From positions 4,157,140 to 4,221,139 of the forward strand of contig JAMKCF010000001.1 in assembly GCA_023634235.1 (NCBI GenBank): 64,000 nucleotides of DNA. The letters run 5' to 3'. Position 1 is the first letter of the stretch. The number at the start of each line of letters is the position of its first letter. The notes beneath the pieces were generated by a model that was not told the origin of the DNA, did not search any database, and saw nothing but the letters and a program-made list of their open reading frames with translations. The DNA comes from Pisaster brevispinus (lineage: Eukaryota; Echinodermata; Asteroidea; Forcipulatida; Asteriidae). This document shows positions 170-63,703 of the stretch, one piece after another. The translations under genes and the position numbers were made by a program.

Positions 170-445
170 TAAATGGTGTTTGAAGCTTTGCATGGTGTGG
201 AGGATAAGAGTAACTATAAATATAAATATAAATAGTAAACTTGCGGGTACAACCATGTGTAAAAAAACTCTTTGAGGGAGTGTTGGCTCTGAAAAGAGCC
301 GGTTTGGTCTCGACGAGCAGAGTATACTGTTCGAAACGTCGAGACCAAACCGGCTCTTTTCAGAGCCAACACTCCCTCAAAGAGTTTTTTACACATGGTT
401 GTACCCGCAAGTTTACTATTTATATTTATATTTATAGTTACTCTT
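170..445. mobile_element. Palindromic hammerhead-bearing Penelope-like insertion, 12-bp TSD
   Basis: Direct repeats ATGTATATTATG at 158-169 and 446-457 flank the element. Arms 204-315 and 337-447 are near-perfect inverted copies (one A/T-run length difference). The central loop 316-336 belongs to a hammerhead-like core. The left arm also carries the full family tail (from about 170), whereas the right arm is cut short at 445. Sequence matches the copy at 32820-33005. Confidence 0.8.
312..346 (+). ncRNA. Partial hammerhead-ribozyme-like core
   Basis: Stem II GAGCAG/CTGTTC (loop AGTATA), then GAA at 333-335 and ACGTC with predicted cleavage after C340. The upstream CTGANGA half is missing, replaced by the inverted arm ending at 311. 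Confidence 0.5.
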
Positions 446-9800: not shown

Positions 9801-12800
9801 TTAGTTTAACAGAGTTAAGGAATTATAGCACATTGTTGGGAAAGTAAAATCTAGACATGAATTATATGACAGTAAAAAAAAATTAAAAAATCAACATTTG
9901 TCTCGTATTGTGGGAGGAATTTGCCGTGTGAAATTTTGTGTTAAAATTTAGCATCTAAAGAATTTTCATCAGTTGTTTTTGCACATTTTGCTACATAATA
10001 ATAGTACTAATAATTAAAAGCATTTATAAAGTGCTTTTACAAGGGAGATAAAAGCGCTGAGCAAGAATATAACAAAAATAGAGTGTTGTGAATAAGGAGA
10101 TGTTTAAGACGCTTCCTGAAAATATTGAGAGACCGAGGGTTCCTGATGCTGCTGCTTTAATAGCCTACTTTACTTATGTCACTGTGTGACTGAATGTAAT
10201 GTTAAACTATACTTGAAGTCTGTAATGTGCAAGGACAATGAGGAAATAAATGTTAATAATAATATTATAAACAAGTTGGCAGTTGAACGTGAAAGTAGTC
10301 CCTGTGGTGGTTGGAGCACTTGGCACCATTCCGAAAGCACTGAGGAAACTTCTAGATGAAAATGGTGCTCCATAAATTGGGCTTAGAGAAAGGGTTTGGG
10401 GCCAGCTATTGAGAAAGACCTACTGTTGAGGGATTTGGAACTTAAAGAGATTGCAAGAAGAAATGTGTCATTAGACGATCCGAGTCCCGCCCTGCCCAGT
10501 AGAAACAAAGCGTGAAGATCATACTATTTGCCCTCGTTTGAGTTTATAAATTAATTTTACATGTGTGCTTCCTGCTTTCAGGTGTCAGTCGCTGATAGCT
10601 CTCTGATTGAAGTGGCCAAACACTACAGCATCAATGCCAATACCCTTCACTATCCCGTCCGCCTGGCAGACTCAGCATCCCGACAGTACGGCTCAGTAGT
10701 CATGACGACCGAGATCGAGTTCTACGACAGCCTGACCGGCCAGAAGCAAGTGATTCCCGTTGGGGTCAACATGGTTCCGTTGGCAGGGCAAGCAAAAGCA
10801 CACGGTAAATAAATAATAAAGACACTCTGACAATGTACAGATCTCGATCTGGCTTCTCATTCTCAGAATAATTTAGATTTTATTTTAATGAGAGATCGCC
10901 TAATATATAAGGCCAGACGGCCACTTCAAGGTCAGGGCTATACATGTACTTACCTGATTTGGTCTATCGACCAAAATCAACTGTCAACAGGGGCATGTTG
11001 CCACCTACTCCTGGGACTGAAACAGGGTTACCCCCTTCACAGTCTGTAAGGATGTAGGCATGGGTATCATCCACAGGTAGCCTGGCTGGTAGAGTAGAAT
11101 GCAATACCTTACCAACTTTCTACGAAGTAATCATGGTCAAGTGCCTAGCTCAAGGACACAAGTGTCAATACTGGGATGAACCCACACTCTGCTGCTGACA
11201 ACACCAGAGCTTGGGTCTGGTAAACTAGTCCGCTCGGCCAGGACATGCCAAGATGAGATCAGTGGTCAAGCATTAAAACATCTGTCCCATATCCAACTTG
11301 ACCCTCAACCTTGTTGGATATGTAGGATTTGACACTTTGCATGGTGGGAGTACAATTTAGGTGGTGACACCACGTGTACAATCTCTTTTGAGTAGCGGTG
11401 GTTTTGAGAAGAACTGGTAGATACTGTATAATTATTGTTAAATGATAATTGATATTGTGTAAGTATTTTAATAGCCTACTTCACCATAATTATGTCACTG
11501 GGTGACTGAATATAAAGTTAAACTATACTTAAAGTCTGTAATGTGCAAGGACAATGATGAAATAAATAAAGTAACAAGTTGGCAGGTGAATGTGAAAGTA
11601 GTCCCTGTGGTGGTTGGAGCACTTGGCACCATTCCGAAAGCACTGAGGAAACTTATAGATGAAATAGGGACAAATGTGAGGGTAGAACTATTACAGAAGG
11701 CGGCGCTTTTGGGAACAGCGAGGATTCTGAGAAAGACCCTTGAGATCTAAGGCTACGGGACGTAGCCCGACTCGAGGAGTTACCGGCACAAAAGAAAATG
11801 TGACCTTTCTTTTGCATGCTGTGATAGAATTCCACTCTTGGTTGTGTGATGGATATTATTATCTTCAAGCAGATTTGAATCCTGGATTCTGATGAGTAGA
11901 TCCATATCAATAAGGAGTGGGATTTAAACTTATATCGCATTGCCCATATCACACCCTGTGTATTGCCTTGTTCAAACTCTGCGTATCCTTCGGCCTCGTT
12001 GGATATGGGACGCAGAAGCGCTATAACTTCTCAGTATCTCACTCGCGCTTAAGTGATGATTTTTTCTTTTTTTTCCATATCTTCAAAGCATCAAAAGCTC
12101 TTTTTCCATTTGTCCAAGCTGTGTTTTGCATTGATGATGTAGTTCGCGAGGTCTATGGAGCTGCATGGTACAATGTAGGTTTAGTGGTGAGCATTTGAGG
12201 CAGTGATCCATGGTGTGGTCTGCTTCTCTACACTAACACGGCCCAATGTCATAGAGCTGCTTAAGCACAATAAAATGTTGCTTACCATGTCAAGTGTACA
12301 ATTTGTGACTGGTATCCTGCTCATATCTGCTTAGCAGGAAATTCTTAAGCATTATTTTCTGCTGAAGCAGCTCTCTGAAATAGGGCCCAGATGATAGGGC
12401 GGGTCTTGCAGTCAGTGTGCAGAGGTCAGCAAAGTGCTTCCTGCTAGGGCCAGTCTTGTACCCCCATTGGGCTGATTCAGCTTTGGATCTACCAGTTTTT
12501 GTCCTCAGGCGATTGTGTGATAACTAATAGTGCATCTTTGTTGGTTTTACAGAACCTCAGCTGACAGGATGGGCCCGGGTTCTTCAGGTTATCTTCAGCA
12601 GTTATCCCTACTGGATTCTACTCCTGATAGTCATTCTAGCCATCGCTGGTATCGTTCTTATATGTAAGTCATCTTCAGAGTGGCCATTCATATCCTAAAT
12701 GGGTGGAAAATATTCAAGCGATACCCCAAATGCAGGCATGCAACTCTTCCGCGTTTCCGCGGATTTCCGCGTTTTTTTAAAATGATCAGCGCTAAAAAAA

Positions 12801-15800
12801 AATCGGAAAAAAAAAAAAAAAAAAAAGTTTTTTTTTTTTTGGCGATTTTTTTTTTTTAAAAGCCTTATATATGCTTGGCAACAACAATGTACAACCACAA
12901 TAATGTGAAATAAGCCTAGTACATGCTAAGAATGCACCTAAGAGCATAATAAACCTCAAAATTTTCTAGGGTACCATTGTGGATCTCATGTCCCTTGGCG
13001 TTTTGGCTGCCTCGCTCCGCGCTTGCGTTGTGCCTTTGAAAATTTCCTCTTTTTTTTCATCGGGCAGTTGCATGCCTGCAAATGAGATAGTTATCATTCA
13101 TTAAGCACATTGGGGGAAGGGTGTTCTGACCAGGGTCACAGTATCCTTGTATACCCCGATTGGGAAAGTTGTCATCCACTAAGCACATTGGGAGAAGAGT
13201 GTCTGACCAGGGTCATAGCATCCTTGTATACCCCCAATTGGGGTTGTTATACTTGTATACCCCGATTGGGATAGTTCTCATCCACTAAGCACATTGGGAG
13301 AAGAGTGTCTGACCAGGGTCATAGCATCCTTGTATACCCCCAATTGGGATTGTTATCCTTGTATACCCCGATTGGGATAGTTCTCATCTACTAAGCACAT
13401 TGGGAGAAATGTGTTCCGACCAGAGTAAACATGAGATGAAAAAGAAAACGCACTAATGAATGCCTCGATACATTATTAAATAGCGCCCCATATTTTGTCT
13501 TTGCCCATGCTTCCCTCCCCCCCCCACCCCCTGCCGACATATAATATTCTTTCTATCTAGGATTTGCCCATTGTCATCTTGATTTTTAGAATTTTTTATT
13601 TCTTTCCTTAAAATTCAGTAATTACTCAATACTGATTTTGTATTTAATTTTTGTGCGCTATCCCTGGCTTTGTTTTTGTTCTTTTTTCTTGTAGGTACCC
13701 AGTTCTTTTGTTTTATATATTTTGTATGCCTCAAATAATCAGTAAGACATTTCATTTACCAGACATATTTCTCTTTTGGTCTTCAATCAGGTTACCACAT
13801 CTTCTTAGCACCTCGGTATTATCAAGTAGCAAATAACTCCGGTGTCTTTCTACGAACGCCTCCCTCGGGTGCTCCGCCTCCGTATTTATCCCAATCCCCA
13901 GGTTAGTACGCAGGGCTCAAACTACCCACTCGGTTTTACTTTTTACAGTCAAAGTACAGACTTCACTCAGCCTCAGACAACACCCGCTGGGTTCTCTCTA
14001 GGATTTTTCAAAACTGGAGGGGCATTCTGGACCCAAATTGTTGATGGGTTTAGCCAAAGCACACTGAATTGACCATATTTTTGACCGCATGAGGGCGCTT
14101 TCATCAGGGAATGTCTTGCATCACAATAGCAGTTTTAGCTTATTATAATTGCCTGTTTGTAGTTTTCTTGCACCAATGAAGAAATACATAAAAAGTAGCG
14201 ATAAAAAAGTGAAAAAACCCTGTTTGTTTACTTGTTTTTCATCATGTGAAATTTAATAATAATAATAATAATAATTGATTCTTATATAGCGCTTTATCAC
14301 AGCCCGAATGCCGTATCAAAGCGCCTCTGACATTATTACCCCTGGTCACTGGGCCATATATTTCATTCGTTAAACCATCTCAGCTCCCTGGGGAGTAAAC
14401 AGCCGGTGCTGCGAGTTTACCGCGCTCCAAGCTAATCATTCACATAAACCATCTCTGCCCTCACAGGTACCCATTTTACCCCTGGGTGGAGAGAAACAAT
14501 TATGGTTAAGTGTCTTGCTCAAGGACACAAGTGTCACGACCGGGATTCGAACCCACATCCCGATGACTTAACCACCAGAACTTGAGTCCGATGCTCTTAT
14601 CCGCTCGGCCACGACACCCCACAAATTTATCCACATACGCCCTCACGTGGTCAAAAATACGGCGAATTGACACAAGGTCCTTAGAATGTTTTGTACATGG
14701 TGTTTGTGGCGTGGCGTAGCCGAGCGGTTTAGTTCATCGGACCCAAGCTCTGGTGTTGTCAACAGCAGAGTGTGGGTTCGAATCCCGGTCATGGCACTTG
14801 TGTCCTTGAGCAAGGCACTTAACCATAAAAGTTGGAAATGTAGTGCACTCTGCTCTGCCAACCAGGCTCCTAGTGGATGATACCCTTGCCTACATCCTTA
14901 CGGACTGTGAAGGGGGTAACCCTCTTTCAGCCCCAGGAGTAGGTGGCAACGTGCCCCTGGTGACAGTTGAGCCAGGTTGACAGCACAAATCTTGAAGTGG
15001 CCGTCCGGCCTTGTGAGTTGGGCGATATCTCATAAAAATATAAAAATATCCATGGTTTCTCAAAGACCTTACGTCCAATCTGGAGCATTCTAAATGGTTT
15101 TATCTTGATGCTTTTTATGGATTTGTTCTGAAGTCCTCCAAAGTAATAAATAAATAAAACAAAATTTGTTCTGGCCACAATTCATAAAAATACGCTAGCT
15201 TGTGCATCGGGAGAGCGGGCGACCCGTCTGGTTGAAAACAAACCAGGTAGCAAATATCTCAAATCTGCTGCCTACAAATTATTTGCTTTAGCTGTTCCAG
15301 GTCTGTAGAACAAGCTTCCAATCACCCCTAAATTCACTGCCTAGTTTTGTAATTTTTGAACATGGTCTTGTATATATATTCGGTTTGCGGTAACACCATG
15401 TGTATATCTACTAGCGGTGTAGATTTGTTCTTTGAGAACTAGGTCTTTCTTTTTAATTCTACTGCAGCGGAGTAAATTTGGAATCGGGAGACTACTTCGG
15501 GAAACTACTTGACGTCTCCTGACGATGACTAGAGCAAGCTAGTCGAAACGTTGAGACCAAATTTAAGAACTCACTCCGCGGCAGTGAAGTTTATAACGAG
15601 AAGTCCCCTCGATCCGATCCACTATTAAGCTAAAGTAGTAGTCCCGGCCAATTTCCTACCCTCCGCCCAGGTAGTAGCTAATAAGCTGGACAGTTCTTTT
15701 CAGAACTTAGTAGTCTCCCGAAGTAGTCTCCCGATTCCAAATCTACTCCGCGGCAGTAGAATTAAAAAGCAAGACCTAGTTCTCAAAGAACAAATCTACA

Positions 15801-16673
15801 CAGCTAGTAGATATACACATGGTGTTACAGCAAACCGAATATATATTGATACCCCACCATGCAAAGCCTCAAAAAGTATATGGTCTTGTATGGCACAAAG
15901 GGAGTTCTGTCAGGGCTTGTCAAATGACAATCGTTTTTATGAATGTTTAGGTACTTTTTAGTGATGTAAGCATTCATTGATGTTACCGACCAGTTTTCGT
16001 GTAGCTCTAAAATTGCTTTGGTTAATAAATTTACGTCAGAAACTTTTTTTTCTGGTTAAGGTCGCCAAAGCTCACCCAGGACTCACCCTTAGCATTAGCC
16101 CGGCATACACTGTCTAGTAAAAAAATACAACGAGCTAGTAAACACCACTTCTAAACTTGTCCTGTGGGCTACTAAAAACTATGCAACATACTTGTTTAAA
16201 ATGCTCAAATTTCTTTCTTTTCACTTGTGGATATTACATTGTTACAATTTGTGAATTTATTTTTGAGTGTGTAAATGTAGCTTCATTTGACCATTAAACT
16301 GGTTGTGATCGCTACCACTAATACATCAGAAAAATCTGGGCTACTAAAACTTCCTGGGGGCAAGTAAAACAAACAGTTCACTAGGCCAGTGGTTCTATTT
16401 ACAAAAAGCTTAACCCAAGTTCTGACCAGTGTTACAGTAGACCTTATTTTTTCAAGAGGTGTGTAGTAACTGCTGTATTGTAAATCCCCTTTTGACATGA
16501 ATATCTCTCACATGTACATTGTCTTTACAGCATATCAGCATAGTCCGTACCAGTCGTCGTTTGATACTTCCTTACGGCATCGTCCACAACAGCAGCAGCA
16601 ACAGCAACGATCACCTACCAAGCTTTGGAGTACGGCCTACAGTCCACAGCCTGGCTCCAGCCCTCAGTATTAG
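627..16673 (+). CDS. NUP210: Nuclear pore membrane glycoprotein 210 (NUP210/gp210), C-terminal 815 residues, 15 exons
   Basis: Fifteen segments bounded by AG/GT sites keep one reading frame: 627-806, 1338-1550, 2185-2340, 3061-3318, 3744-3919, 4796-4880, 5214-5343, 6067-6203, 6787-6910, 7767-7913, 9093-9346, 10582-10804, 12553-12663, 13791-13901, 16531-16673. NUP210 is a type I membrane protein of the nuclear pore ring with a huge lumenal part. Seen here: lumenal beta-rich sequence; a bacterial-Ig-like (BID_2) stretch around fragment residues 235-260 (NGQGLVSAG...TGQASVQVTA); one hydrophobic helix near residues 713-732; and a cytoplasmic tail of about 83 residues with SPTKLWS near the end. 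Vertebrate family members are about 1,890 residues, so roughly 1,070 residues lie upstream of the window. All junction phases close exactly (total 2,448 nt including stop). The family assignment is from remembered sequence character, not a search. Confidence 0.93.
1105..1176 (+). repeat. tRNA-like SINE head (family 2)
   Basis: A-box-like CTCAGCTGGTAGAGT and B-box-like GGTTCTAATCC with 'ggcacgtta' between, followed by T-rich and AT-rich sequence. A sister copy lies at 2755-2825. The acceptor stem does not pair, so it is not called as a functional tRNA. Confidence 0.6.
1338..1550 (+). CDS. NUP210: NUP210 exon
   Basis: Acceptor tccacag, donor CGG/gtgagt; 71 codons, phase 0 to 0. Lumenal sequence with the motif GLEFHWTVTNPDVVSVEP, characteristic of the repeated Ig-like folds of this family. 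Confidence 0.92.
1551..2184. other. NUP210 intron with nothing recognised
   Basis: AT-rich sequence with short ORFs only. A loosely inverted pair (atagacctt near 1690, aggtcatttagacctt near 1851) may mark an old small element. Confidence 0.4.
2185..2340 (+). CDS. NUP210: NUP210 exon
   Basis: Acceptor gtttacag, donor CAG/gtaacc; 52 codons, phase 0 to 0. Lumenal segment. Confidence 0.9.
2367..2640 (+). repeat. tRNA-derived SINE (family 1)
   Basis: Head has TGGCCGAGAGGTTTAG (A box) and GGTTCGAATCTC (B box), then the shared body 'tgtgtccttgagcaag...gggtacctgtgatggcagagatg...ccagggagctgagatggttta'. At least eight other copies lie in the window. Confidence 0.85.
2755..2825 (+). repeat. tRNA-like SINE head (family 2)
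   Basis: AGCTCAGTTGGTAGAGCG (A box) and GGTTCAAGTC (B box), followed by 'agtgattttgtctttgttca', which is also present after the 1105 copy. Confidence 0.65.
3061..3318 (+). CDS. NUP210: NUP210 exon with BID_2-like Ig segment
   Basis: Acceptor ctgaacag, donor AAG/gtgggt; 86 codons. Contains VNGQGLVSAG and TGQASVQVTA, the typical end of a bacterial-Ig-like group 2 fold that this family is known to carry. Confidence 0.92.
3744..3919 (+). CDS. NUP210: NUP210 exon
   Basis: Acceptor ctgtag, donor CAG/gtatta; 176 nt, ends in phase 2. Contains VFPVGMTLSFAVAFYDNFGD. The split AG|A codon (Arg) is completed by the next exon. Confidence 0.92.
3948..4092. mobile_element. Small inverted-repeat element (MITE family M3)
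   Basis: Ends 'gggagacttttg...ctaggtggcagcagacttac' and 'gtaagtctgctgccacctag...caaagtctccc' are inverted copies around a short middle. A second copy lies at 30321-30469. It starts 28 bp after a NUP210 donor site. Confidence 0.75.
4339..4498. mobile_element. Small foldback element (MITE family M4)
   Basis: Terminal cgatttcac...gtgaaatcg, with internal inverted 'cctaacttagga'/'tcctaagttagga' and 'actcgtcctaac' blocks. A second copy lies at 20747-20887. Confidence 0.75.
4796..4880 (+). CDS. NUP210: NUP210 exon
   Basis: Acceptor tttttag, donor AAG/gtaatt; 85 nt, starts with the third base of Arg and ends in phase 0. Encodes FDMLRLQAGPDNGTFVARAT and on to STIFK. Confidence 0.9.
5214..5343 (+). 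CDS. NUP210: NUP210 exon
   Basis: Acceptor gtttag, donor AGG/gtaggt; 130 nt, ends in phase 1. Contains WDKNSPWIEDYVNIPVGS and a VGDVICF segment. The donor could be slid by one base, but only this choice keeps frame with the next exon. Confidence 0.9.
5379..5600 (+). repeat. 5'-truncated tRNA-derived SINE (family 1)
   Basis: Begins within the head (gttctggtgtttctgatcagcagagtgtgggt), with B-box-like sequence and a 3' end 'acggtgctatataaatat'. Confidence 0.7.
5645..5930. mobile_element. MITE (family M1)
   Basis: Terminal inverted repeats GGAAAGCTCCATTAAAG / CTTTAATGGAGCTTTC. The body 'ggatgagcagttaatctgcctggggcagtcagcagccctactgg' is shared with 9484-9752. No transposase frame. Confidence 0.75.
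6067..6203 (+). CDS. NUP210: NUP210 exon
   Basis: Acceptor tcatacag, donor GAG/gtgaga; 137 nt, phase 1 to 0. Contains LQLDSASGVAVAARPGHTTL. Confidence 0.9.
6204..6786. other. NUP210 intron with nothing recognised
   Basis: AT-rich; no repeat structure or coding signal that I can support. Confidence 0.4.
6787..6910 (+). CDS. NUP210: NUP210 exon
   Basis: Acceptor ttattcag, donor AAG/gtatgt; 124 nt, phase 0 to 1. Encodes VYVLPINKIKLEKEAVSFFT and following residues. Confidence 0.88.
6947..7102. mobile_element. MITE (family M2)
   Basis: Ends 'tttcataaagctgcta' and 'agcagctctatgaaa' are inverted, with internal 'ccaaaacaaggttaccagcc' and 'tgactggtatcctgct'. Related copies or fragments lie at 8378-8475, 12240-12387, 18186-18303 and about 18670-18880. 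Confidence 0.7.
7767..7913 (+). CDS. NUP210: NUP210 exon
   Basis: Acceptor tatcag, donor TAG/gtaagt; 147 nt, phase 1 to 1. Contains PPIVCQLSFRDRGLKVQASE. A GC-rich repeat begins immediately downstream of the donor. Confidence 0.88.
7925..8300. repeat. GC-rich block of unknown identity in NUP210 intron
   Basis: Begins 11 bp after the donor at 7913, with the palindrome ccccgcggggc and then dense GC-rich sequence ending near 'ccacgcctgtgttgtgctttag'. Its composition differs sharply from the surrounding AT-rich intron. It has the look of a structured repeat or truncated retroelement, but I do not recognise a family. Confidence 0.45.
8378..8475. repeat. MITE family M2 fragment
   Basis: 'ccaatttcatagagccgcgta...gctaaacagtttgctgcctag' resembles the left end of family M2 (6947-7102). 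Confidence 0.45.
8640..9030 (+). mobile_element. Diverged hammerhead/Penelope-like tail copy
   Basis: Contains 'ctgatgac...caggctagtcaaagccttgagaccaa', then 'ctccgcggcagtagag' and the terminal 'ggtgttatcgcaaaccgaatat', matching the order in 15374-15879. The catalytic GAA is altered. The first ~90 bp (tagcccggcatacaatgtctag...gtgggctact) recur at 16097-16185. Confidence 0.6.
9093..9346 (+). CDS. NUP210: NUP210 exon
   Basis: Acceptor ttgtccag, donor AGG/gtgagt; 254 nt, phase 1 to 0. Contains YFCGI and a long lumenal segment ending DATLKAMR. Confidence 0.9.
9484..9752. mobile_element. MITE (family M1), second copy
   Basis: Same terminal repeats and body as 5645-5930 (ggaaagctccatta ... taattgagctttcc). 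Confidence 0.72.
10150..10490 (+). pseudogene. 5'-truncated retrotransposon 3' end, broken ORF tail
   Basis: Frame from about 10284 encodes KVVPVVVGALGTIPKALRKL, then LDENGAP-stop. The same segment at 11586-11747 continues further. The VIPVVVGALG...ELLQK..LLGTARILRK C-terminus is one I associate with retrotransposon polyproteins in invertebrate genomes. Confidence 0.55.
10582..10804 (+). CDS. NUP210: NUP210 exon
   Basis: Acceptor gctttcag, donor ACG/gtaaat; 223 nt, phase 0 to 1. Last lumenal beta-rich segment (VADSSLIEVAKHYS; IEFYDSLTGQKQVIPVGVNM), just before the membrane exon. Confidence 0.9.
10890..11245 (-). repeat. tRNA-derived SINE (family 1), minus strand
   Basis: Reverse-complement head (gctcggccaggacatgcc at the right end) and body 'gccacctactcctgggactgaaacagggttacccccttcacagtctg', shared with 14705-15031 and 18333-18690. 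Confidence 0.8.
11330..11425 (-). repeat. Penelope-like tail fragment (minus)
   Basis: 'actttgcatggtgggagtacaat...ggtggtgacaccacgtgtac...gagtagcggtggttttgagaagaactgg' matches the tail at 47540-47640 and, inverted, at 33000-33085. Confidence 0.5.
11470..11790 (+). pseudogene. 5'-truncated retrotransposon 3' end, C-terminal fragment intact to stop
   Basis: Frame 11586-11750 encodes KVVPVVVGALGTIPKALRKL, IDEIGTNVRVELLQKAALLG and TARILRKTLEI-stop. It is followed by a hairpin-like 3' end 'ggctacgggacgtagcccgactcg'. The upstream 100 bp are noncoding and also match the copy at 10155. Confidence 0.6.
12240..12387. mobile_element. MITE (family M2)
   Basis: 'gcccaatgtcatagagctgcttaagcac' and 'agcagctctctgaaatagggc' are inverted ends; internal 'tgtgactggtatcctgctcatat'. 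Confidence 0.7.
12553..12663 (+). CDS. NUP210: NUP210 transmembrane exon
   Basis: Acceptor gttttacag, donor ATAT/gtaagt; 111 nt, phase 1 to 1. Encodes the single membrane helix: YWILLLIVILAIAG continuing to IVLIC. This anchors the protein in the nuclear envelope. Confidence 0.92.
12731..13080. mobile_element. MITE with perfect 15-bp terminal inverted repeats
   Basis: TGCAGGCATGCAACT at 12731-12745 and its exact complement at 13066-13080. The interior is homopolymer-rich (A and T runs) with repeated 'tttccgcg' words. No coding capacity. Confidence 0.75.
13088..13425. repeat. Composite tandem repeat, about 3 copies
   Basis: Blocks 'catccactaagcacattgggagaagagtgtctgaccagggtcatagcatcc' and 'ttgtataccccgattggga' alternate. 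The last two full units are nearly identical with a period of about 113 bp. Confidence 0.85.
13791..13901 (+). CDS. NUP210: NUP210 cytoplasmic tail exon
   Basis: Acceptor ttcaatcag, donor CCAG/gttagt; 111 nt. First part of the pore-facing tail, proline-rich (RTPPSGAPPPY). Confidence 0.85.
14075..14655. mobile_element. MITE (family M5) interrupted by a SINE
   Basis: Ends 'tatttttgaccgcatgagggcg' and 'cgccctcacgtggtcaaaaata'. An uninterrupted copy lies at 19207-19425, so the SINE at 14253-14623 is a later nested insertion. Confidence 0.8.
14253..14623 (-). repeat. tRNA-derived SINE (family 1) nested in a MITE
   Basis: Minus-strand head at the right end (ccgctcggccacgac) and an (AAT)n tail at the left end. 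Flanked by AAATTTA on both sides; the empty site at 19207-19425 has it once. Confidence 0.85.
14705..15031 (+). repeat. tRNA-derived SINE (family 1)
   Basis: Head GTAGCCGAGCGGTTTAG and B box GGTTCGAATCCC; body 'ggtaaccctctttcagccccaggagtaggtggcaac' ending near 'gggcgatatctcat'. Confidence 0.85.
15374..15879 (+). mobile_element. Hammerhead-bearing Penelope-like element with inverted end, 12-bp TSD
   Basis: ATGGTCTTGTAT occurs at 15362-15373 and 15880-15891. Inside are a left arm (about 15374-15506, from tattcggtttgcggtaacaccatg), a hammerhead-like core at 15514-15558, and a right arm that is the left arm inverted (about 15717-15845, ending acagcaaaccgaatatat). No coding frame, so it is a short non-autonomous or end-only copy. 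Confidence 0.8.
15514..15558 (+). ncRNA. Hammerhead-ribozyme-like motif (type I)
   Basis: Stem I GTCTC/GAGAC; core CTGACGA at 15519-15525 (fits CUGANGA); one extra T at 15526; stem II GACTAG/CTAGTC with loop AGCAAG; GAA at 15545-15547; minimal stem III ACGT; predicted cleavage after T15552. The extra nucleotide before stem II and the two-pair stem III are unusual, and activity is not shown. Confidence 0.55.
16097..16185 (+). repeat. Short repeat shared with 8641-8728
   Basis: 'tagcccggcatacactgtctagtaaaa...cttgtcctgtgggctactaaaaact' matches the start of the diverged element at 8640. Confidence 0.6.
16531..16673 (+). CDS. NUP210: NUP210 last exon: Q7 tract, SPTKLWS tail and stop
   Basis: Acceptor tctttacag; 143 nt ending TAG at 16671-16673. 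Encodes a seven-glutamine run (mixed CAG/CAA), then RSPTKLWSTAYSPQPGSSPQY-stop. The SP..LWS signature is what I expect at the end of NUP210 proteins, and it supports the splice choices upstream. Confidence 0.88.
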
Positions 16674-22863: not shown

Positions 22864-30823
<7,960 letters not shown>

Positions 30824-32270: not shown

Positions 32271-32819
32271 TATAGGTAAATATATTTAACCTTTTTTATT
32301 TTTTAAGTGAGGCTGAATTTGTTGTACTATCATATTTCATGCACAGACCAGGCCCGTAAATAGGCGCTTCGCTAATGCGCCAATGTACATTTTCATTCAT
32401 ATTCAAATAAATAAATTGGATAGAAAATAATTTTTTTTTTTTTAAAGCCTGGTTACGGGCCTGCCACAGACCTATCCAGATCTAGCCCTTTGAAGATAAG
32501 TGGAGCCATCTTTTCATGCCAGGTTTCGAAGAGTAGGCCTAGCTGCGGTTCTAAAAAAAAACAATCCGAGCATACTGATCGAAACGTCAAAATGTTAAAC
32601 GACACAGCTCTTTGGTGCAGTCACGGTGTGGACAAGCCTTTGTGCGATAAAACTTAAAGAAAAAATCATATTCCTCAACACTGTGTTGACGTGTGTCAAG
32701 TCCACCTAGTGTTTAAATGTACTACACTTTAATATGGACCTCTTTTGTTCTCAAGTCCACATTCCGTGTGTAGCGTTAAAACACTGGTTCTTCTCTGAAC
32801 CACAACTACTCCGAAGAGA

Positions 32820-33005
32820 ACCACAACTTCTCCTGAAGACGAGCAGAGTATACTGTTCGAAACGTCGAGACCAAACCGGCTCTTTTCAGAGCCAACACTC
32901 CCTCAAAGAGTTTTTACACATGGTTGTACCCGCAAGTTTACTATTTATATTTATATTTATAGTTACTCTTATCCTCCACACCATGCAAAGCTTCAAACAC
33001 CATTT
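32820..33005 (+). mobile_element. 186-bp hammerhead-headed Penelope-like insertion, 12-bp TSD
   Basis: ACTCCGAAGAGA at 32808-32819 and 33006-33017. The insertion begins 8 bp before the hammerhead-like core and ends 'ccatgcaaagcttcaaacaccattt'. The inverted-duplicate arm near 47590-47640 lacks it, giving the pre-insertion site. Confidence 0.8.
32828..32872 (+). ncRNA. Hammerhead-ribozyme-like motif
   Basis: CTGAAGA at 32833-32839 (fits CUGANGA), one extra C, stem II GAGCAG/CTGTTC with loop AGTATA, GAA at 32859-32861, then ACGTC with predicted cleavage after C32866. Stem I is only partly paired (TTCTC vs GAGAC). Confidence 0.5.
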
Positions 33006-33360
33006 ACTCCGAAGAGATTTATACACATGGTATCACCACAAACCTCACCTGATTGTACTCCCACCATGCCGAGTTTCAAATTCTACTTAATTTTCCCGGT
33101 AATGTTTCATAGCTACGTACAACTGCATGAAAATTGATAACAACTTTCCTTGGTAATAAGGTGCGGGGCAACCTTGTTTGAACCGGTTAAGAGTTTGTGT
33201 ATAAAGACTGACTGCAGGGCCCTGATGTATTTTATACAAAAACTGTTAACAACTTTCCTTGAACTTCACATGCTCGATGCCCTCTCCCCCTCCCATAAAT
33301 GTAAGAGGATCACATTCTGCCAACCCCTGGTCCTGATATGGATGCTGTAGACGCTGCTCC

Positions 33361-47529: not shown

Positions 47530-47650
47530 TACCGTCGGATTTGAAACTCTGCATGGCGGGAGTACAATCAGGTGAGGTTTGTGGTGACGCCATGTGTAAA
47601 ATGATCTTTTGAGTAGTTGTGGTTCTGAGAAGAACCAGTGTTTAAAGCTA
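47530..47650 (-). repeat. Penelope-like tail fragment within the palindrome arm
   Basis: 'gaaactctgcatggcgggagtacaatcaggtgaggtttgtggtgacgccatgtg' is the inverse of 33000-33085 and resembles 11330-11425. Confidence 0.55.
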
Positions 47651-50394: not shown

Positions 50395-52870
50395 AAAGAG
50401 ACAGATAATTTCATTCGTTCGTTTCCATTTCAACGTAAAGGTTGCTCGTCCAACACGTTGCAGTTGAATATTTGTTCATTGAAGAGTAGTTTTGGGTGAG
50501 TTTTTCGCTGTAGATAATTATTGTATTTGACAAATGTTTGATGTTAACCTGTAAAACTGTTCATTTTTGTAATAATGGCGATCTGGTATGAAGCTGTAGT
50601 GTTGATTGCTACGTGAGTGTACAACATGGCCGACGTGCTGCGTATGCCGAGACCGTCGTGTGCACACACACGTTGTTATATCATGTAGGCTATAATTATT
50701 GCGTGTGGGTGGATCTTGGATTTCACTGTCTCATGGCTGATAGCGTATCAAACCGTGCACGCGCAATGACTTATTTATAGATTTATAGATTTATAGATTT
50801 GTATAAATATTAGTTCATGTGACTGCCTACTAGACTTCAGTAGCCATTTACCACAGTTACTCTGATGTGCCAAGGTTAGATTTTATTTTATAATTTTCTA
50901 GATTATGCAAGGAATTTTAGATAAACTCATCAAGCTTAAAATGTGAAAACCTAGAAAGATGTAGAGATAACTGTTAATGTACAGTATGTCATTTATTTGC
51001 AGGGTCTTGTGTTGTTTTGTATAATACTTGTGGGTCAGCATTCATGTCAATACAAGCTTCAGTAAAGGAATAAAGAGCTAATTTAAAGATCATCAAGTGT
51101 TGAGAGTCAAATCATCTTTTATTGTGAAGGGTCGGATCCCACACTCTCACTTTACGGAGGGTGGAGTCAGTATAGTAAAAAAAACATACATTTTCAAAAT
51201 AGGATCAAATTTAGTTACCCGTAATACATAAATGTTTTTTTAAAACACAAATGTTTTTACTAAGACTTATTTCAGTCCATTCAAACTTATCAAACAACAA
51301 TGTATTCCCACGATGATTAACGATTAAGTAAGAAATCTGACATCGTGGCTAGCTTGCTGATTGCGCCATGACTGCACAAACACGGCAAGGCGTCGGAGAT
51401 TGCATTGGCAGTCGAGTCCTGACCGAGAGGGGACCTATAGTTAGTTTATAGACGTCCGATTTGTGCATGAACGGTATTTGCAGTTCCTCATCAGGTGTTA
51501 AATTACGGTAATTTAATGGTTATTACTTGTCTTGTAGCTTAGAACACTCGCGAAATTTTATTCAAAATGATGGTCTTATTAATTTTTGTCCTTTATTTCC
51601 GCTACAAACAGAAAGTGCAAATGTCAAAAATAGCATTTTCTTAAATTATTGTCATACAGTCATAATTTTTCGCCGTCTTTTAAATTGTGACAGATTTGAA
51701 AGATTAGTGACGAACGTGATCCTACTTTGACGTTTCCTTCCGGTCCAAACTGGACGTTTAAATGTAAATAATCACATTATTGAACCATTTCTCATTAAAC
51801 CATAATTTTTGTGGCGTATTGTACCTGATGGCATACTTAACACATTATTTGACAACACGATCTCAATTTGACCTTTGCTTTCGGTCCTAACAGGAAGTTA
51901 AAATTAACAATTACAACTTCTGAACTAGGTGGGGTGAGGGTACAAATGAAGCACAAGGTTCATTGCCAATGACGGTAAAAGTTAAGATCAGCTTCAGGGT
52001 CAGGTTAAACTACTATTATTTTCCTCTGTGAAAAAACACAGGGTTTGTTCACGCATTTCTTGACATCCAAAAGTCATACTTGGCATATTATAAAAGATTT
52101 AGATCGTATATCATTATATAGATTTGGTCACAAATCAATAGTTAAATGTTCTCAGCTAAACTTAATTAATTGGTTTGCTTAGTTATAATGACATGAGTTT
52201 AGCCAATCTTGAGACCAGTATTTCTCAAAAAGTACACGTCCGATCATCAGACTTTTTCGTTAACATACTTGTATGATACCGTGTGCAATTTTTTAATGGC
52301 CTAAAACGCTGGATGACGTCACCATGACTCCATTAATTTAGTGTACGTTGTGTAGTGTGTACAAAACCCTTGGCTCTAAAAGTATGTGTTTGTTAAAAAA
52401 CACAACTTTTCAAAATAAGTTACACAATGTTTATTCGGTTTGCAGTAACACCGTGTGTGTATCTACTAGTACTAGCTTTGTAGATTTGTTATTAGAGAAC
52501 TAGGTCTTGCGTTTTATTCTACTGCCGCGGAATAGAATTTTGGAAATCGGGAGACTTCCCTTGTTCTGAAAAGAACTGTCCTGCTTATTAGCCACTACCT
52601 GGGCGGACGGTAGGAAATGGGCCGGGACTACTAGAGGACTTCTCGTTGTTAACTTCACTGCCGCGGAGTGAGTTGTTGATTGGTCTCAACGTTTTGACTA
52701 GCTTGCTTTAGTCATCATCAGGAGACTGAAGAGTATGATACATGTTTGTCTATTTATAGGGGTTCAGAGGTTTCAGTGTGAAGTCAGTCACTGCTCTGAT
52801 TGGTTCTGCTGAAAGGAGAACTGTGGTTGGAGGGATCAGGGCTGTTGTGGGGGATGCTCATTGCGTGTGA
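50395..52870. repeat. Left arm of a second large inverted repeat
   Basis: Outer end 'gacagataatttcattcgttcg...ttgctcgtccaacacgttgcag', middle 'gggtcggatcccacactctcactttacggagg', inner end the Penelope-like tail. All occur inverted in 60585-63703. Confidence 0.8.
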
Positions 52871-59250: not shown

Positions 59251-59282
<32 letters not shown>

Positions 59283-59680
59283 CGAACAATAAGAAGAGGT
59301 CTTCGGACTTTTGTCCGAACACCTAAAAAAAAACAAAAAACGGAACAATAATAAGAGGTGTTCCGGGCGGATTGCCCGAACACCTAAAAAAAAAAACCGA
59401 ACAATAAGAAGAGGTCTTCGGACTTTTGTCCGAACACCTAAAAAAAAAAAAAAACCGAACAATAACAATGAGTTGTTCGGGCTTAAAGCCCGAACACCTA
59501 AAAAAAAAAAAACGGAACAAAAATAAGAGGTGTTCCGGGCGGATTGCCCGAACACCTAAGAAGAAGAAGTATTAAGAAAGAAAAAAAAAAAAAAAACGAA
59601 CAAAAATAAGAGGTGTTCCGGGCTGAATGCCCGAACACCTAAAAAAAAAACCTGTTCCGACATTAGGTCGGAACAGCTAA
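59236..59680 (+). repeat. Array of seven poly(A)-linked hairpins
   Basis: Hairpins at about 59297-59324, 59356-59385, 59412-59439, 59471-59499, 59528-59557, 59611-59640 and 59652-59676. Each has a 10-12 bp stem and a 4-5 nt loop, and most are followed by CCTAAAAAAA and 'ACCGAACAATAA'-type linkers. Stem pairs differ in concert (GGAC/GTCC, GGGC/GCCC, CGAC/GTCG). Open frames here are homopolymer by-products. Confidence 0.85.
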
Positions 59681-60584: not shown

Positions 60585-61027
60585 CAAAATAGCCCTCATC
60601 CCTCCAACTACAGTTCTCCTTTCAGAAGAACCAATCAGAGCAGTGACTGACTCTACACTGAAACCTCTGAACCCCTGAAATTAGACAAACATATTTCATA
60701 CTCTTGAGTCTCCTGACGATGACTAGAGCAAGCTAGTCGAAACGTTGAGACCAATCAAAAACTCACTCCGCGGCAGTGAAGTTAATAACCGATCCCCGAT
60801 CTGATCCACTATTAAGCTAAAGTAGTAGTTTCGGCCGATTTCATACCCTCCGCCCAGGTAGAAGCTAATAAGCTGGACAGTTCTTTTCAGAGCTAAGTAA
60901 TATCCCGAAGTAGTCTCCCGATTTTCAAAATTATACTCCGCGGCAGTAGAATAAAACGCAAGACCTGGTTCTCTAAGAACAAATCTATACAGCTAGTAAA
61001 TATACACATGATGTTACCGCAAACCGA
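60585..61027 (+). mobile_element. Penelope-like element 3' end with hammerhead-like core
   Basis: 'caaccaatcagagcagtgactga'-type leader, core at 60708-60752, 'ctccgcggcagtgaag', and terminus 'gatgttaccgcaaaccgaat'. Inverse partner of 52436-52900. Confidence 0.75.
60708..60752 (+). ncRNA. Hammerhead-ribozyme-like motif (type I)
   Basis: Identical core to 15514-15558: GTCTC/GAGAC stem I, CTGACGA, extra T, GACTAG-AGCAAG-CTAGTC, GAA, ACGT, predicted cleavage after T60746. Confidence 0.55.
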
Positions 61028-63703
61028 ATTATACATTGTGTAAACTATTTCGAAGATTCGTATTTTTTTAACAACCAAATACTGACACTTTTTAGAGCGA
61101 ATGGTTTTGTACATACTACAAAACGCACAATAAGTTATGGAGTCATGGTGACGTCGTCACACATTTTAGGTCATTAAAAAAATATACACGGTATCCTACA
61201 AGTATGTAAACGAAACTAGTCTGATGATTGGGCGTATTTTTTTATTTATTTATTTTTTTTTTTGGGGGGGGAGAGAAGTACTGGTCTCAAGATTGGCTTA
61301 ACTCATGTCATTATAACTAAGCAAAGTGATTAATTAGGTTAAGTAACTACATTTAACTTTAACTTACTTATGAAATATCTACTATGGTATAGGATTTGAC
61401 TCTTTTATAATAAGTCAAGTATGACTTTTGGAGGTCAAGAAATGCGTTTACAAAACCTATGCTTTTCTTTTTAAGACGAAAAGAGTAACAATTAAACTTG
61501 ACCCTGAACCAAATCTTAACTATTACCGTCATTTATGCTATTTGACCCTTATTCGTACCCTCACCCCAACTGGTCAAGAAGTTGTAATTGTTAATTTTTA
61601 CTTCCTGTTTGTAGCGGAAGAAAGATCAAATTGAGGCCGTGTTGTTGAATAAATTGTTAAATGTGCTTTCAGGTACAATATGCCACAAAACTTATGGTTT
61701 GATGACAAATGGTTAAGGTCAAAATAAGGTCATCATTTTGAATACAATATCGCAAGTGTCCTAAGCTACAAGATAGAAGAAAACGCACGACTCGATGACA
61801 GTTTGTTCAGGAGATATGATTGTTTAAGTAATAACATTGAAATACCGTAACTTGACACCTGATGACGTCACAATGAAAAACAAATCATACTAACAAATTT
61901 TAAAAGGTACTAGATGGTATTTAACTTTTCCCAATCAAATGCAATTTAATGAAAACCCTATTAACCGTCCATGCCCAAATCGAATGGGCTTTAAACTAAC
62001 TATAGGACCCGTCTCGGTTAGGATTCGACTGTCAAGGCAATCTCCGACGCCTTGCCGGGATTGGGCTAGTCTTGAAATCAAGTCGGTAATTGTTGTGCGG
62101 TCCAGTTGTGGGGACGGTACACACATCCTCGATCCCAATATGTGTGTGAGTCGGTCGCAATTACCGTCTTGAATAACTTGTACCCAGCTTTGTACACATG
62201 CAATTGGACTTGCTACCAAAATTGGACGGAGCAGTTTGATTGGTTAAGAATCGTGAAGACATGAATATTCATCATACATCTAGCAGCGTGTGGCATCTTG
62301 CAGCTATACCAGGCGCACACTTCATTCTTTGATAGGGGGTTTATTATTGATAGTAAAATTTTATGATAATGCATTGGTCAAATTTATCTTAAAAGAAAGT
62401 TAAGAAATGTTTACAATGATTGAAATATTATGTTTTTTTACATTGATGTTGGCAAATAAACTGTCATTCATATAAAAAAAAAAAGCCAACAGAAAAGATA
62501 CATTCCCATGTTTATAATGAATTCTTCCAATTTTGTCAGACGAGCTAACATTGGCTCTCTCTAGGGCAACTTTTACATATGCAATGTATAATTTACCATA
62601 CATGAATATTCGGCTGGGAACAAGCTATTCAAGTCGTTAGAGCTGACGGACCTTGCCACGCGCTACCTACGACCGTTGCATGAATGTACATTATAATCGC
62701 ACTGTGACTGTTGCATGAACGGCAGGATGTGTGTTTGTAATAGGCAGCGCTGGCAGACAAATAGACACTGACTAACGACTTGTCATCAAGTCTAGGATTG
62801 GGCAATCATGGCGCAATCAGCAAGCTTGCAGTTGTGTCCAATTTCTTACTTAATCGTTAATTATCGTGCGAATACACTGTTGCTTGATATGTTTGCATCG
62901 ACTGAAATAGCTCTTTATATTGAACAACATTTGTGTTTTAAAAATTATTTGTGTCTTAATTAAGGGTAACTAAAATTGATCTTATTTTGAAAATGTATGG
63001 TCTTTGACTGTGATGACTCCATCCTCCGTAAAGTGAGAGTGTAGGATCCGACCCTTCACAATAAATATTGAGATGACTCTCAACACCTGATGATCTTTAA
63101 AATAGCTCTTTAATCCTTTACTGAAGCTTGTATTGACATGAATGCTGACCCACAAGTATAATACAAAACCAATACAAAACCCCGCAAACAAATAACATAC
63201 TCACGTTACCAGTTGTCTCTAAATCTGGGTTTTCATATTTTAAGTTGGATGAACTTGTACAAACATGTCTACCCTCATGAGTGAACAAATGTTATAAAAA
63301 TCTACAGCAATATTAATCACCTTCACTGACAAGTCATTGTGCGTGCACGGTTTGATACACTATCAGCCATGAGACACTGAAATCCACGATCCACCCACAC
63401 GCAAAATAGCTTACACGATATTACAACGTGTGTGTGCACACGGCGGTTTCGGCATACGCAACACAACGGTCATGCTGTACACTCACGTAGCCATCAACGC
63501 TACTGCTTAATACCAGATCGCCGTGGGTAAAAAAATTAAAAATTTGACAGGTTTACATCAAATGTTTGTCAAATACAATAATTATCTACAGCATAAACAC
63601 ACCCCAAATGGTTTTCAATAAACAAATATTCAACTGCAACGTGTTGGACGAGCAACCTTTACGTACAAATGGGAACGAACGGATGACATTATCTGTCTCA
63701 AGA

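Follow-up and report, generated by a model that had tools for sequence, protein, structure and literature searches.

In a 64,000-nucleotide stretch of the genome of the sea star Pisaster brevispinus (contig JAMKCF010000001.1, positions 4,157,140 to 4,221,139; hereafter the window, whose own numbering we use), three short insertions at 170–445, 15374–15879 and 32820–33005 carry all or part of a hammerhead-like ribozyme core and, behind it, a hairpin that looks like the stem-loop of animal histone 3′ untranslated regions. These insertions are probably pseudo-long terminal repeats (pLTRs) of an endonuclease-bearing retroelement of the Penelope/Poseidon type, a judgement that we make jointly with the explanation, developed below, by two-strand priming and histone-type RNA ends. 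To the fuller reading we give roughly even odds (about 0.5): that a Penelope-like lineage built the host hairpin for SLBP and a U7 site into its terminal repeat beside a self-cleaving ribozyme, that its transcripts would lack poly(A) and be coupled to S phase, that ribozyme and U7 cuts would compete over whether mRNA, full-length template or pLTR-only template is made, and that both target strands would be primed, with one RNA start site for each strand.

The insertions and their coding relatives

As the initial annotation had described, each insertion is bounded by a 12-bp direct repeat, exact at all three sites (ATGTATATTATG at 158–169, repeated at 446–457; ATGGTCTTGTAT at 15362–15373, repeated at 15880–15891; ACTCCGAAGAGA at 32808–32819, repeated at 33006–33017). 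Family A comprises the copies 170–445 and 32820–33005, the latter supplying the 178-nt reference unit (unit 0–177; 32828–33005, plus strand, pLTR and tail), and family B the copy 15374–15879 (unit 0–365). Copies 170–445 and 15374–15879 are head-to-head inverted structures, in which a unit is joined to its own shorter inverted copy. At 170–445 (locus L041), a tailed pLTR arm (170–314, minus strand, unit about 35/39 to 177) meets an inverted, tail-less arm (310–445, plus strand, unit about 10 to 144), with an overlap of 4 nt of common letters; at 15374–15879, an inverted tail-less arm (15374–15509, minus strand, unit 332 to 195) precedes a pLTR with tail (15514–15879, plus strand, unit 0–365). 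Ahead of the reference unit stands an 8-nt filler, ACCACAAC (32820–32827, plus strand), whose letters also occur just upstream of the target. The outer ends of inverted arms would place a proximal start site of reverse transcription at 32970–32972 (plus strand, unit 143/144) and the distal one at the end of the tail (32973–33005, plus strand), which holds CACCATG, the likely start of an open reading frame (ORF).

A search with the 20-nt 3′ end of family A found 187 places in the genome and none in the reversed control. Of these places 100 were listed, and the 96 non-redundant ones were all read, in stretches reaching about 600 or 1500 nt upstream, so that inverted arms farther off would be missed (duplicate loci L029, L042, L043, L049, L056, L062, L090 and L091 were left out of the counts). 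Eighty-one of the 96 consist of pLTR sequence alone (67 head-to-head pairs and 14 whose stretch shows no inverted arm), and in the other 15 the end of an ORF precedes the unit (four head-to-head pairs, with the ORF end on the tailed arm, and 11 without an inverted arm in the stretch), giving 71 head-to-head copies in all. The expectation of a short ribozyme-plus-tail unit found mostly on its own agrees with this count, and the reported lack of a coding frame is true of all three window insertions but not of those other copies where an ORF end lies directly upstream of the unit. In one of these (L017) the ORF stops 26 nt ahead of the unit, and in its 464-aa end RVT_1 (E = 2.3e-9) as well as GIY-YIG (E = 5.2e-6) score above the Pfam cut-offs. 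A homology search with the reverse transcriptase gave 3033 matches, and among the 120 of them listed the best named ones are echinoderm proteins, led by Asterias amurensis (61% identity), then Patiria, Anneissia and Lytechinus. The Penelope-like affiliation first suggested for the insertions is borne out by these two domains in the coding element, by direct and inverted pLTRs, the inverted ones without tail, and by target-site duplications (TSDs).

In a side observation, at least seven family-B head-to-head pairs were seen on contig C34 within 28917–422405 (for example 28917–29624, 229048–229756 and 245556–246263), recurrences that look like part of a larger repeated segment.

A histone-type hairpin behind a hammerhead-like core

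The core CTGANGA...GAAAC, which had been attributed to all three insertions, is complete in two of them (CTGACGA...GAAAC at 15519–15549 and CTGAAGA...GAAAC at 32833–32863, both plus strand), copy 170–445 having the 3′ part only; it recurs at 60713–60743, and a further match at 2402–2423 is probably chance (four matches in the window versus 1.05 expected). Cleavage is predicted after 32866 (GTC|GAGACC, unit 39) in family A and would fall after 15552 (GTT|GAGACC) in family B. Across 14 sequences stem II is 93.9% paired, but in all 14 its basal pair sets a pyrimidine against the G of GAAA. The covariation score over all three helices lies above 500 of 500 shuffles, a value inflated by sequence relatedness, and pairs changed on both sides and further pair types were not above shuffles. 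Unit 39 is the exact inner end of 5 of the 37 truncated ends (unit 15 to 135), in four insertions, with 0.3 expected per position (P = 1.7e-5 by ends and 2.9e-4 by insertions; two further copies ending at unit 35 were not counted as cut-site ends), and locus L142 starts exactly there. Judging by the insertions that end at the predicted cut, the ribozyme may cut template RNA in vivo.

The hairpin pattern GYYYTTHTHARRRC occurs eight times in the 64-kb window versus 0.57 expected, so that chance was rejected as its origin, and by our reading of the sequence all eight lie in pLTRs of families A, B or C. The stem-loop of the reference unit, GGCTCTTTTCAGAGCC (32878–32893, plus strand; 28.3 bits with the Rfam histone model), stands 11 nt past the predicted cut; in copy 170–445 the hairpin core, GCTCTTTTCAGAGC, is found at 286–299 in the tailed arm (minus strand; RF00032, 29.7 bits at 261–305) and at 353–366 in the inverted arm (plus strand; 28.3 bits at 347–389), and a histone-like core of family B, with neither an ACC flank nor a U7-type downstream element, at 15693–15706 (plus strand). 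In families other than B the hairpin follows the predicted cut by 9–16 nt. Genome-wide, the ribozyme 3′ core followed after 3–14 nt by GGYTCTTYTCAGARCC was found at 969 places, with none in the reversed control. In most families read the hairpin is succeeded by AAAAGAGAT or a close variant, as in host histone genes. The initial annotation mentions neither this hairpin nor the element that follows it.

The Rfam histone model scored 75 candidates in the genome, all above its cut-off of 34 bits, of which 20 were fetched. By their C-termini seven are histone genes: H2A (L151, L156), H1 (L153), H4 (L167, L170 and the frame-shifted L168) and H2B (L169). Pfam placed H2A above the cut-off and matched H4 to its histone model below the cut-off, with no match for the H2B peptide, and the names other than the Pfam-confirmed H2A are probable assignments from the sequence. 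Five of the 20 are retroelement pLTRs (L158, L163–L166), four of them with the ribozyme 3′ core directly upstream. Six host histone genes score 38.0–42.5 bits and the family-D pLTRs 38.2–40.4 bits. The remaining eight fetched sequences (L152, L154, L155, L157, L159–L162) were recognised neither as histone genes nor as pLTRs; they have a histone-type stem-loop and a CAAAAAAGAGAT-like element, and L160 and L161 are near-identical copies on C4 and C43.

Among the first 100 of the 969 places, ten pLTRs (L171–L180) were chosen because their spacers differ, blind to what follows the hairpin. Seven have (A/G)AGAGAT behind it (L171–L176, L178) and L177 has AAGAGAA, nothing like this being found in L179 or L180; host histone genes have CAAAAAAGAGAT at a similar distance. 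L174 (37.4 bits) and L176 (35.1 bits) exceed the Rfam cut-off, seven others (L171–L173, L175, L177–L179) score 22.5–33.7 bits, and L180 has no histone-model match among the matches listed; the pattern itself, a 6-bp stem with a UHUH loop, is present in every sequence selected for it. Separately, five near-identical ribozyme-plus-hairpin places were noticed on C2 (5102933–5163059), in the same orientation and 12–18 kb apart; the one that was read, L179, is among those without the downstream element.

Two candidate U7 genes lie on C26. The first reads ...CATCTCTTTTGAATTTCTCAAG, then a 9-bp hairpin; the second copy is 11 kb away, and the 5′ flank is conserved. The candidate's AUCUCUUUU is the exact complement of AAAAGAGAU. 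The candidate was obtained with the Rfam U7 model, of whose matches L149 and L150 do not resemble U7; a pattern built on an assumed Sm site gave no signal (14 matches versus 27 in the reversed control). Duplex energies, computed with the first 21 nt of the candidate, are −13.1 to −16.1 for the six identified histone genes and −12.0 to −15.3 in 10 of 20 pLTRs (L171–L173, L178, C_11420 and all five of family D), for which at most 3 of 200 shuffles were equally good. They are about −11.5 for L176 and L177, and −8.4 to −10.0 for L174, L175, L179, L180 and C_47641 (the last at −9.3, with none of 200 shuffles equally good). The complete signal of hairpin and downstream element is a property of several families, and in families A and B only the hairpin is clear. 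The combination suggests that the element RNA may undergo histone-type 3′-end processing.

Several points weigh against this part of the proposal. The window hairpins score 28.3–31.8 bits, under the cut-off; just two of the ten pLTRs chosen by ribozyme and hairpin pass it; and the high-scoring family-D copies come from a list that had been sorted by this same score. The best Rfam U7 match in the genome has 24 bits against a cut-off of 34, the same permissive search was also positive in 12 of 14 control genomes (none above the cut-off), and the second candidate copy has an extra A in its pairing region. The family-A element, AAAGAG at 32905–32910 (plus strand), is weak (duplex −7.1, with 32 of 200 shuffles equally good), and in family B it is absent (−5.2 and −4.6; 136 and 133 of 200). 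The Rfam search reported no hammerhead at the places of the core, and full-length RNA could arise only if the histone-type signal of the 5′ pLTR were passed over. It is possible, if on balance doubtful, that hairpin and purine-rich stretch serve the ribozyme or an element protein, their histone likeness being convergence with no part for SLBP or U7: a hairpin near the cut could aid ribozyme folding or protein binding, that of family B lies about 140 nt behind the core and lacks both flank and downstream element, and the weakness in family A is in keeping with such a role. Against convergence, stem, loop, ACCAC-type flank, spacing and AAAAGAGAT jointly resemble host H2A, H2B and H4 genes, those pLTR elements pair with the candidate U7, and family D, though selected by score, falls within reach of the histone genes on the Rfam scale.

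If SLBP and U7 do act on the element, its RNA would end without poly(A), like replication-dependent histone mRNA, and expression would be favoured in S phase. RNA that U7 ends at about unit 70, or that the ribozyme cuts at unit 39, within the 3′ pLTR would be left without the 3′ start sites and could be primed in its 5′ pLTR only; this would account for the 81 of 96 family-A copies that consist of pLTR alone. Retroviral R regions are repeats that hold an RNA start and a poly(A) 3′-end signal and are used at one end only. The pLTR may be akin to them, as a repeat at both RNA ends with RNA start, ribozyme, histone-type end and start sites of reverse transcription; here a histone-type signal would replace the poly(A) signal, no LTR mechanism is involved, and use at one end only would likewise apply.

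Further pLTR sequence in the window comprises two older family-B pLTRs, one at 60708–61042 (plus strand; the core given above, hairpin 60880–60893), for which no clear duplication was found, and one at 52417–52727 (approximate limits, minus strand; hairpin 52563–52576), and two family-C-like parts, at 47540–47641 (minus strand; hairpin 47622–47635, partial downstream element) and 11330–11417 (approximate limits, minus strand; decayed hairpin 11401–11414, downstream element CAAAAGAGATT). The surroundings of the TSD at 32808–32819 also look like a family-C pLTR: copy 32820–33005 would be an element within a related element (32650–33070), with the hairpin GGTTCTTCTCTGAACC before it and the motifs ACACATGG and CACCATGCC after it. 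The window also contains a perfect 19-bp tandem array (1–130, 6.8 copies), a 27-bp array in register with codons (29019–29725, 26.8 copies) and a third tandem array (59269–59559), in which A-runs alternate with GC-rich units of ~58 bp that form hairpins. Rfam candidates mir-763, MIR5512, snR49 and MIR7723 were rejected, every score being under its own cut-off.

Paired arms, target sites and priming

The two arms of head-to-head copies differ at their outer ends. The tailed arm ends at unit 176/177, the end for which copies were selected, and the inverted arm at 140–146 in 61 of 71 pairs (143 in 30, 144 in 14), at 108–138 in nine and at 149 in one, falling ~34 nt short of the tailed arm; family B is similar. 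A search pattern for ends that lack the tail and continue with a base other than A, partly independent of the selection for tailed ends, gave 17 matches. Thirteen were read as inverted arms of a tailed unit; two adjoin such a unit as judged by coordinates only; L146 stands without a partner in its stretch; and L142 is a solo copy whose right end has no tail. (L130–L146 were read outside the TSD and arm counts, and L040 and L055, segmental duplicates of L039 and L028, were left out of the TSD, arm and truncated-end counts.)

The inner ends vary separately. Among the 71 pairs, 17 have a left arm that exceeds the right by at least 15 nt (13 of them by at least 62 nt), nine have the longer arm on the right, and in 45 the two are within 14 nt; in L052 the left arm includes 293 nt from upstream of the unit and the right arm starts at 86, both being perfect matches to the reference. 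Overall, 93 of 142 inner ends fall between −5 and +12, and 9 of 142 farther upstream; since the ends cluster at −5 to +12, most template RNAs seem to start at the 5′ edge of the unit. A smaller group at unit 65–71 (8 of 44) may reflect stops of reverse transcription at the hairpin, or U7 cuts. Up to eight inherited variants are common to both arms of one insertion, so that a single source locus supplied both templates, or the same RNA served twice, and two different source loci per insertion find no support; differences between arms occur in 31 of 74 pairs, and are mostly private or in a poly-T run. In L015, L037, L054, L100 and others, 30–50 nt of extra letters stand between the arms, in some as repeated scraps of the unit start, which suggests repeated slippage or template jumps when two cDNAs join.

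TSDs were measured in 81 family-A copies with an inverted arm, from best-match and pattern loci, among 110 non-redundant copies examined. Their lengths are 12 bp in 40, 13 bp in 27, 14 bp in six, 15 bp in one, 11 bp in one, 10 bp in two and 6–8 bp in four, and in 77 of the 81 the flanking repeat is at least 10 bp long, compared with such a match in 1 of 4793 mismatched flank pairs. Among the 71 head-to-head copies of the pattern-listed set alone, TSDs are 12 bp in 38, 13 bp in 21 and at least 10 bp in 67. The length tabulation over other copies had been named beforehand as a check on the claim of a constant 12-bp duplication: lengths are not scattered, and the narrow range therefore stands, but not a strict 12 bp (12–13 bp in 59 of the 71). 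In family B, TSDs are 12–15 bp at seven of eight loci, L006 having merely an 8-bp match. Counting target-site bases from the first base past CATTT, 64 of 77 family-A duplications begin with A; the position just before is C in 46 of 77, and the two positions ahead of that one are A in 45 and 56 of 77.

The copies support the following course of insertion, which we propose. The target is cut with a 12–13 nt stagger at AAC|A-like sites; reverse transcription is primed by the bottom strand from the distal RNA start site (unit 177, with the tail) and by the top strand, as a rule, from a second site ~34 nt upstream (unit 143/144, no tail); and each cDNA is extended on its own until it meets the RNA 5′ end, the predicted ribozyme cut or some other stop, after which the two are joined head to head. 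A precedent exists in the Poseidon_Ac protein of Anolis, which, according to the portions of PMC11167929 drawn on here, cuts and extends both strands in vitro and starts reverse transcription at two internal sites that bound the tail.

Head-to-head pairs could instead arise by self-priming (snap-back) of one cDNA or antisense RNA, as has been proposed for rotifer Penelope elements in the sections of PMC3846280 consulted. We regard this as unlikely here. The inner ends within 14 nt of each other in 45 of 71 pairs, the source variants common to both arms and a small palindrome at the unit start able to self-prime (CTTC-TCCT-GAAG) would suit it. On the other side, right arms have the tail and left arms none, both junction classes occur (left 7/right 0; left 0/right 7), and in the 13 pairs with the much longer left arm neither arm is a copy of the other. 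Separate truncation of the kind seen in L052, with the tail on one arm only, cannot be yielded by a strand copying itself, and the independent truncation and tail difference thus fit two-strand-primed reverse transcription at two RNA start sites better than snap-back. Three points tell against two-strand priming as we propose it: L142 has a tail-less right end, one copy though it is; in some copies, unequal arms could also result from deletions within the palindrome after insertion; and the in vitro start sites of Poseidon_Ac are alike on both strands in the material of PMC11167929 used here.

The initial annotation had seen in these units a distinct non-autonomous class, and a retrozyme-like ribozyme element, mobile by itself with a fixed TSD, is a reading that we consider quite improbable. 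It would accommodate the predominance of pLTR-only copies, L007 of family B, a direct solo copy starting exactly at the unit start, and L142, a direct solo from the predicted ribozyme cut with a 12-bp TSD, and animal retrozymes of 170–400 nt do exist (as summarised in parts of PMC7229834). It is opposed by the 15 of 96 family-A copies in which the end of a reverse transcriptase/endonuclease ORF stands before a unit identical in kind and in 3′ end, and by copies that are mostly head-to-head, unlike the tandem monomers of animal retrozymes as portrayed in those parts. A separate class is unsupported because pLTR-only copies are the expected output of reverse transcription starting in the pLTR of a coding element; on the retroelement reading they would be by-products of that element, started in the pLTR of its own RNA. 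That the pairs arose by DNA recombination or palindrome repair with no reverse transcription is hardly credible: palindromes are established to rearrange readily, but the 12–13 bp TSDs, the constant outer end and hundreds of dispersed copies, often 99–100% identical, speak against it.

Known elements and significance

Poseidon_Ac, so far as the portions of PMC11167929 cover it, and the present element share an ORF with reverse transcriptase and GIY-YIG, a hammerhead pLTR (hammerhead-like here) and an optional tail of 30–40 nt between two start sites of reverse transcription. They differ in that the start sites here divide between the strands in insertions, and in the target, with TSDs of 12–13 bp at AAC|A-like sites here and an ATT preference there; moreover, a histone-type hairpin lies behind the ribozyme here, and the word histone occurs 0 times in the main text of PMC11167929. 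Pen1–Pen6 of Adineta vaga, in the sections of PMC3846280 available to us, likewise have TSDs and solo pLTRs, with TSDs of 8–10 bp or none in place of our 12–13 bp; the head-to-head form is put down there to self-priming, and those sections do not mention a hammerhead. Metazoan retrozymes, from the excerpted account in PMC7229834, are akin in being short non-coding units of 170–400 nt with type I hammerheads and, when present, TSDs of >4 bp; they are tandem repeats with canonical hammerheads and circular RNAs, whereas the copies here are mostly head-to-head pairs, their core is minimal, and they share their ends with a coding parent. No tandem array of units was seen in the family-A stretches read, in which 71 of 96 listed copies are head-to-head. 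The plant LTR retrozyme has a 4-bp TSD, unlike the 12–13 bp here.

The replication-dependent histone 3′-end signal (RF00032) is akin in stem, loop, flank, spacing and downstream element, as seen in host H2A, H2B and H4; here the likeness is one of sequence, and the signal lies past a ribozyme-like core within a retroelement's terminal repeat. Among the matches listed from open-licence titles and abstracts, none linked Penelope-like or hammerhead retroelements to the histone stem-loop, SLBP or U7, and among those from the open-licence literature none described a mobile element using a histone mRNA end. Inverted pLTRs, tails, solo pLTRs and hammerheads are already known in Penelope-like elements. 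What the present copies add is the strand difference in start site, a TSD confined to the narrow range of 12–13 bp and, most notably, the histone-type signal.

With so many young insertions, two-strand priming by Penelope-like elements and the lack of the tail in inverted pLTRs become open to testing, and the narrow TSD and sharp asymmetry of start sites provide quantitative predictions for the published in vitro system. If the proposal is true, the histone-type end would be a direct route to retrotransposition coupled to S phase, and would give a use to RNA that is cut by a ribozyme and has no poly(A).

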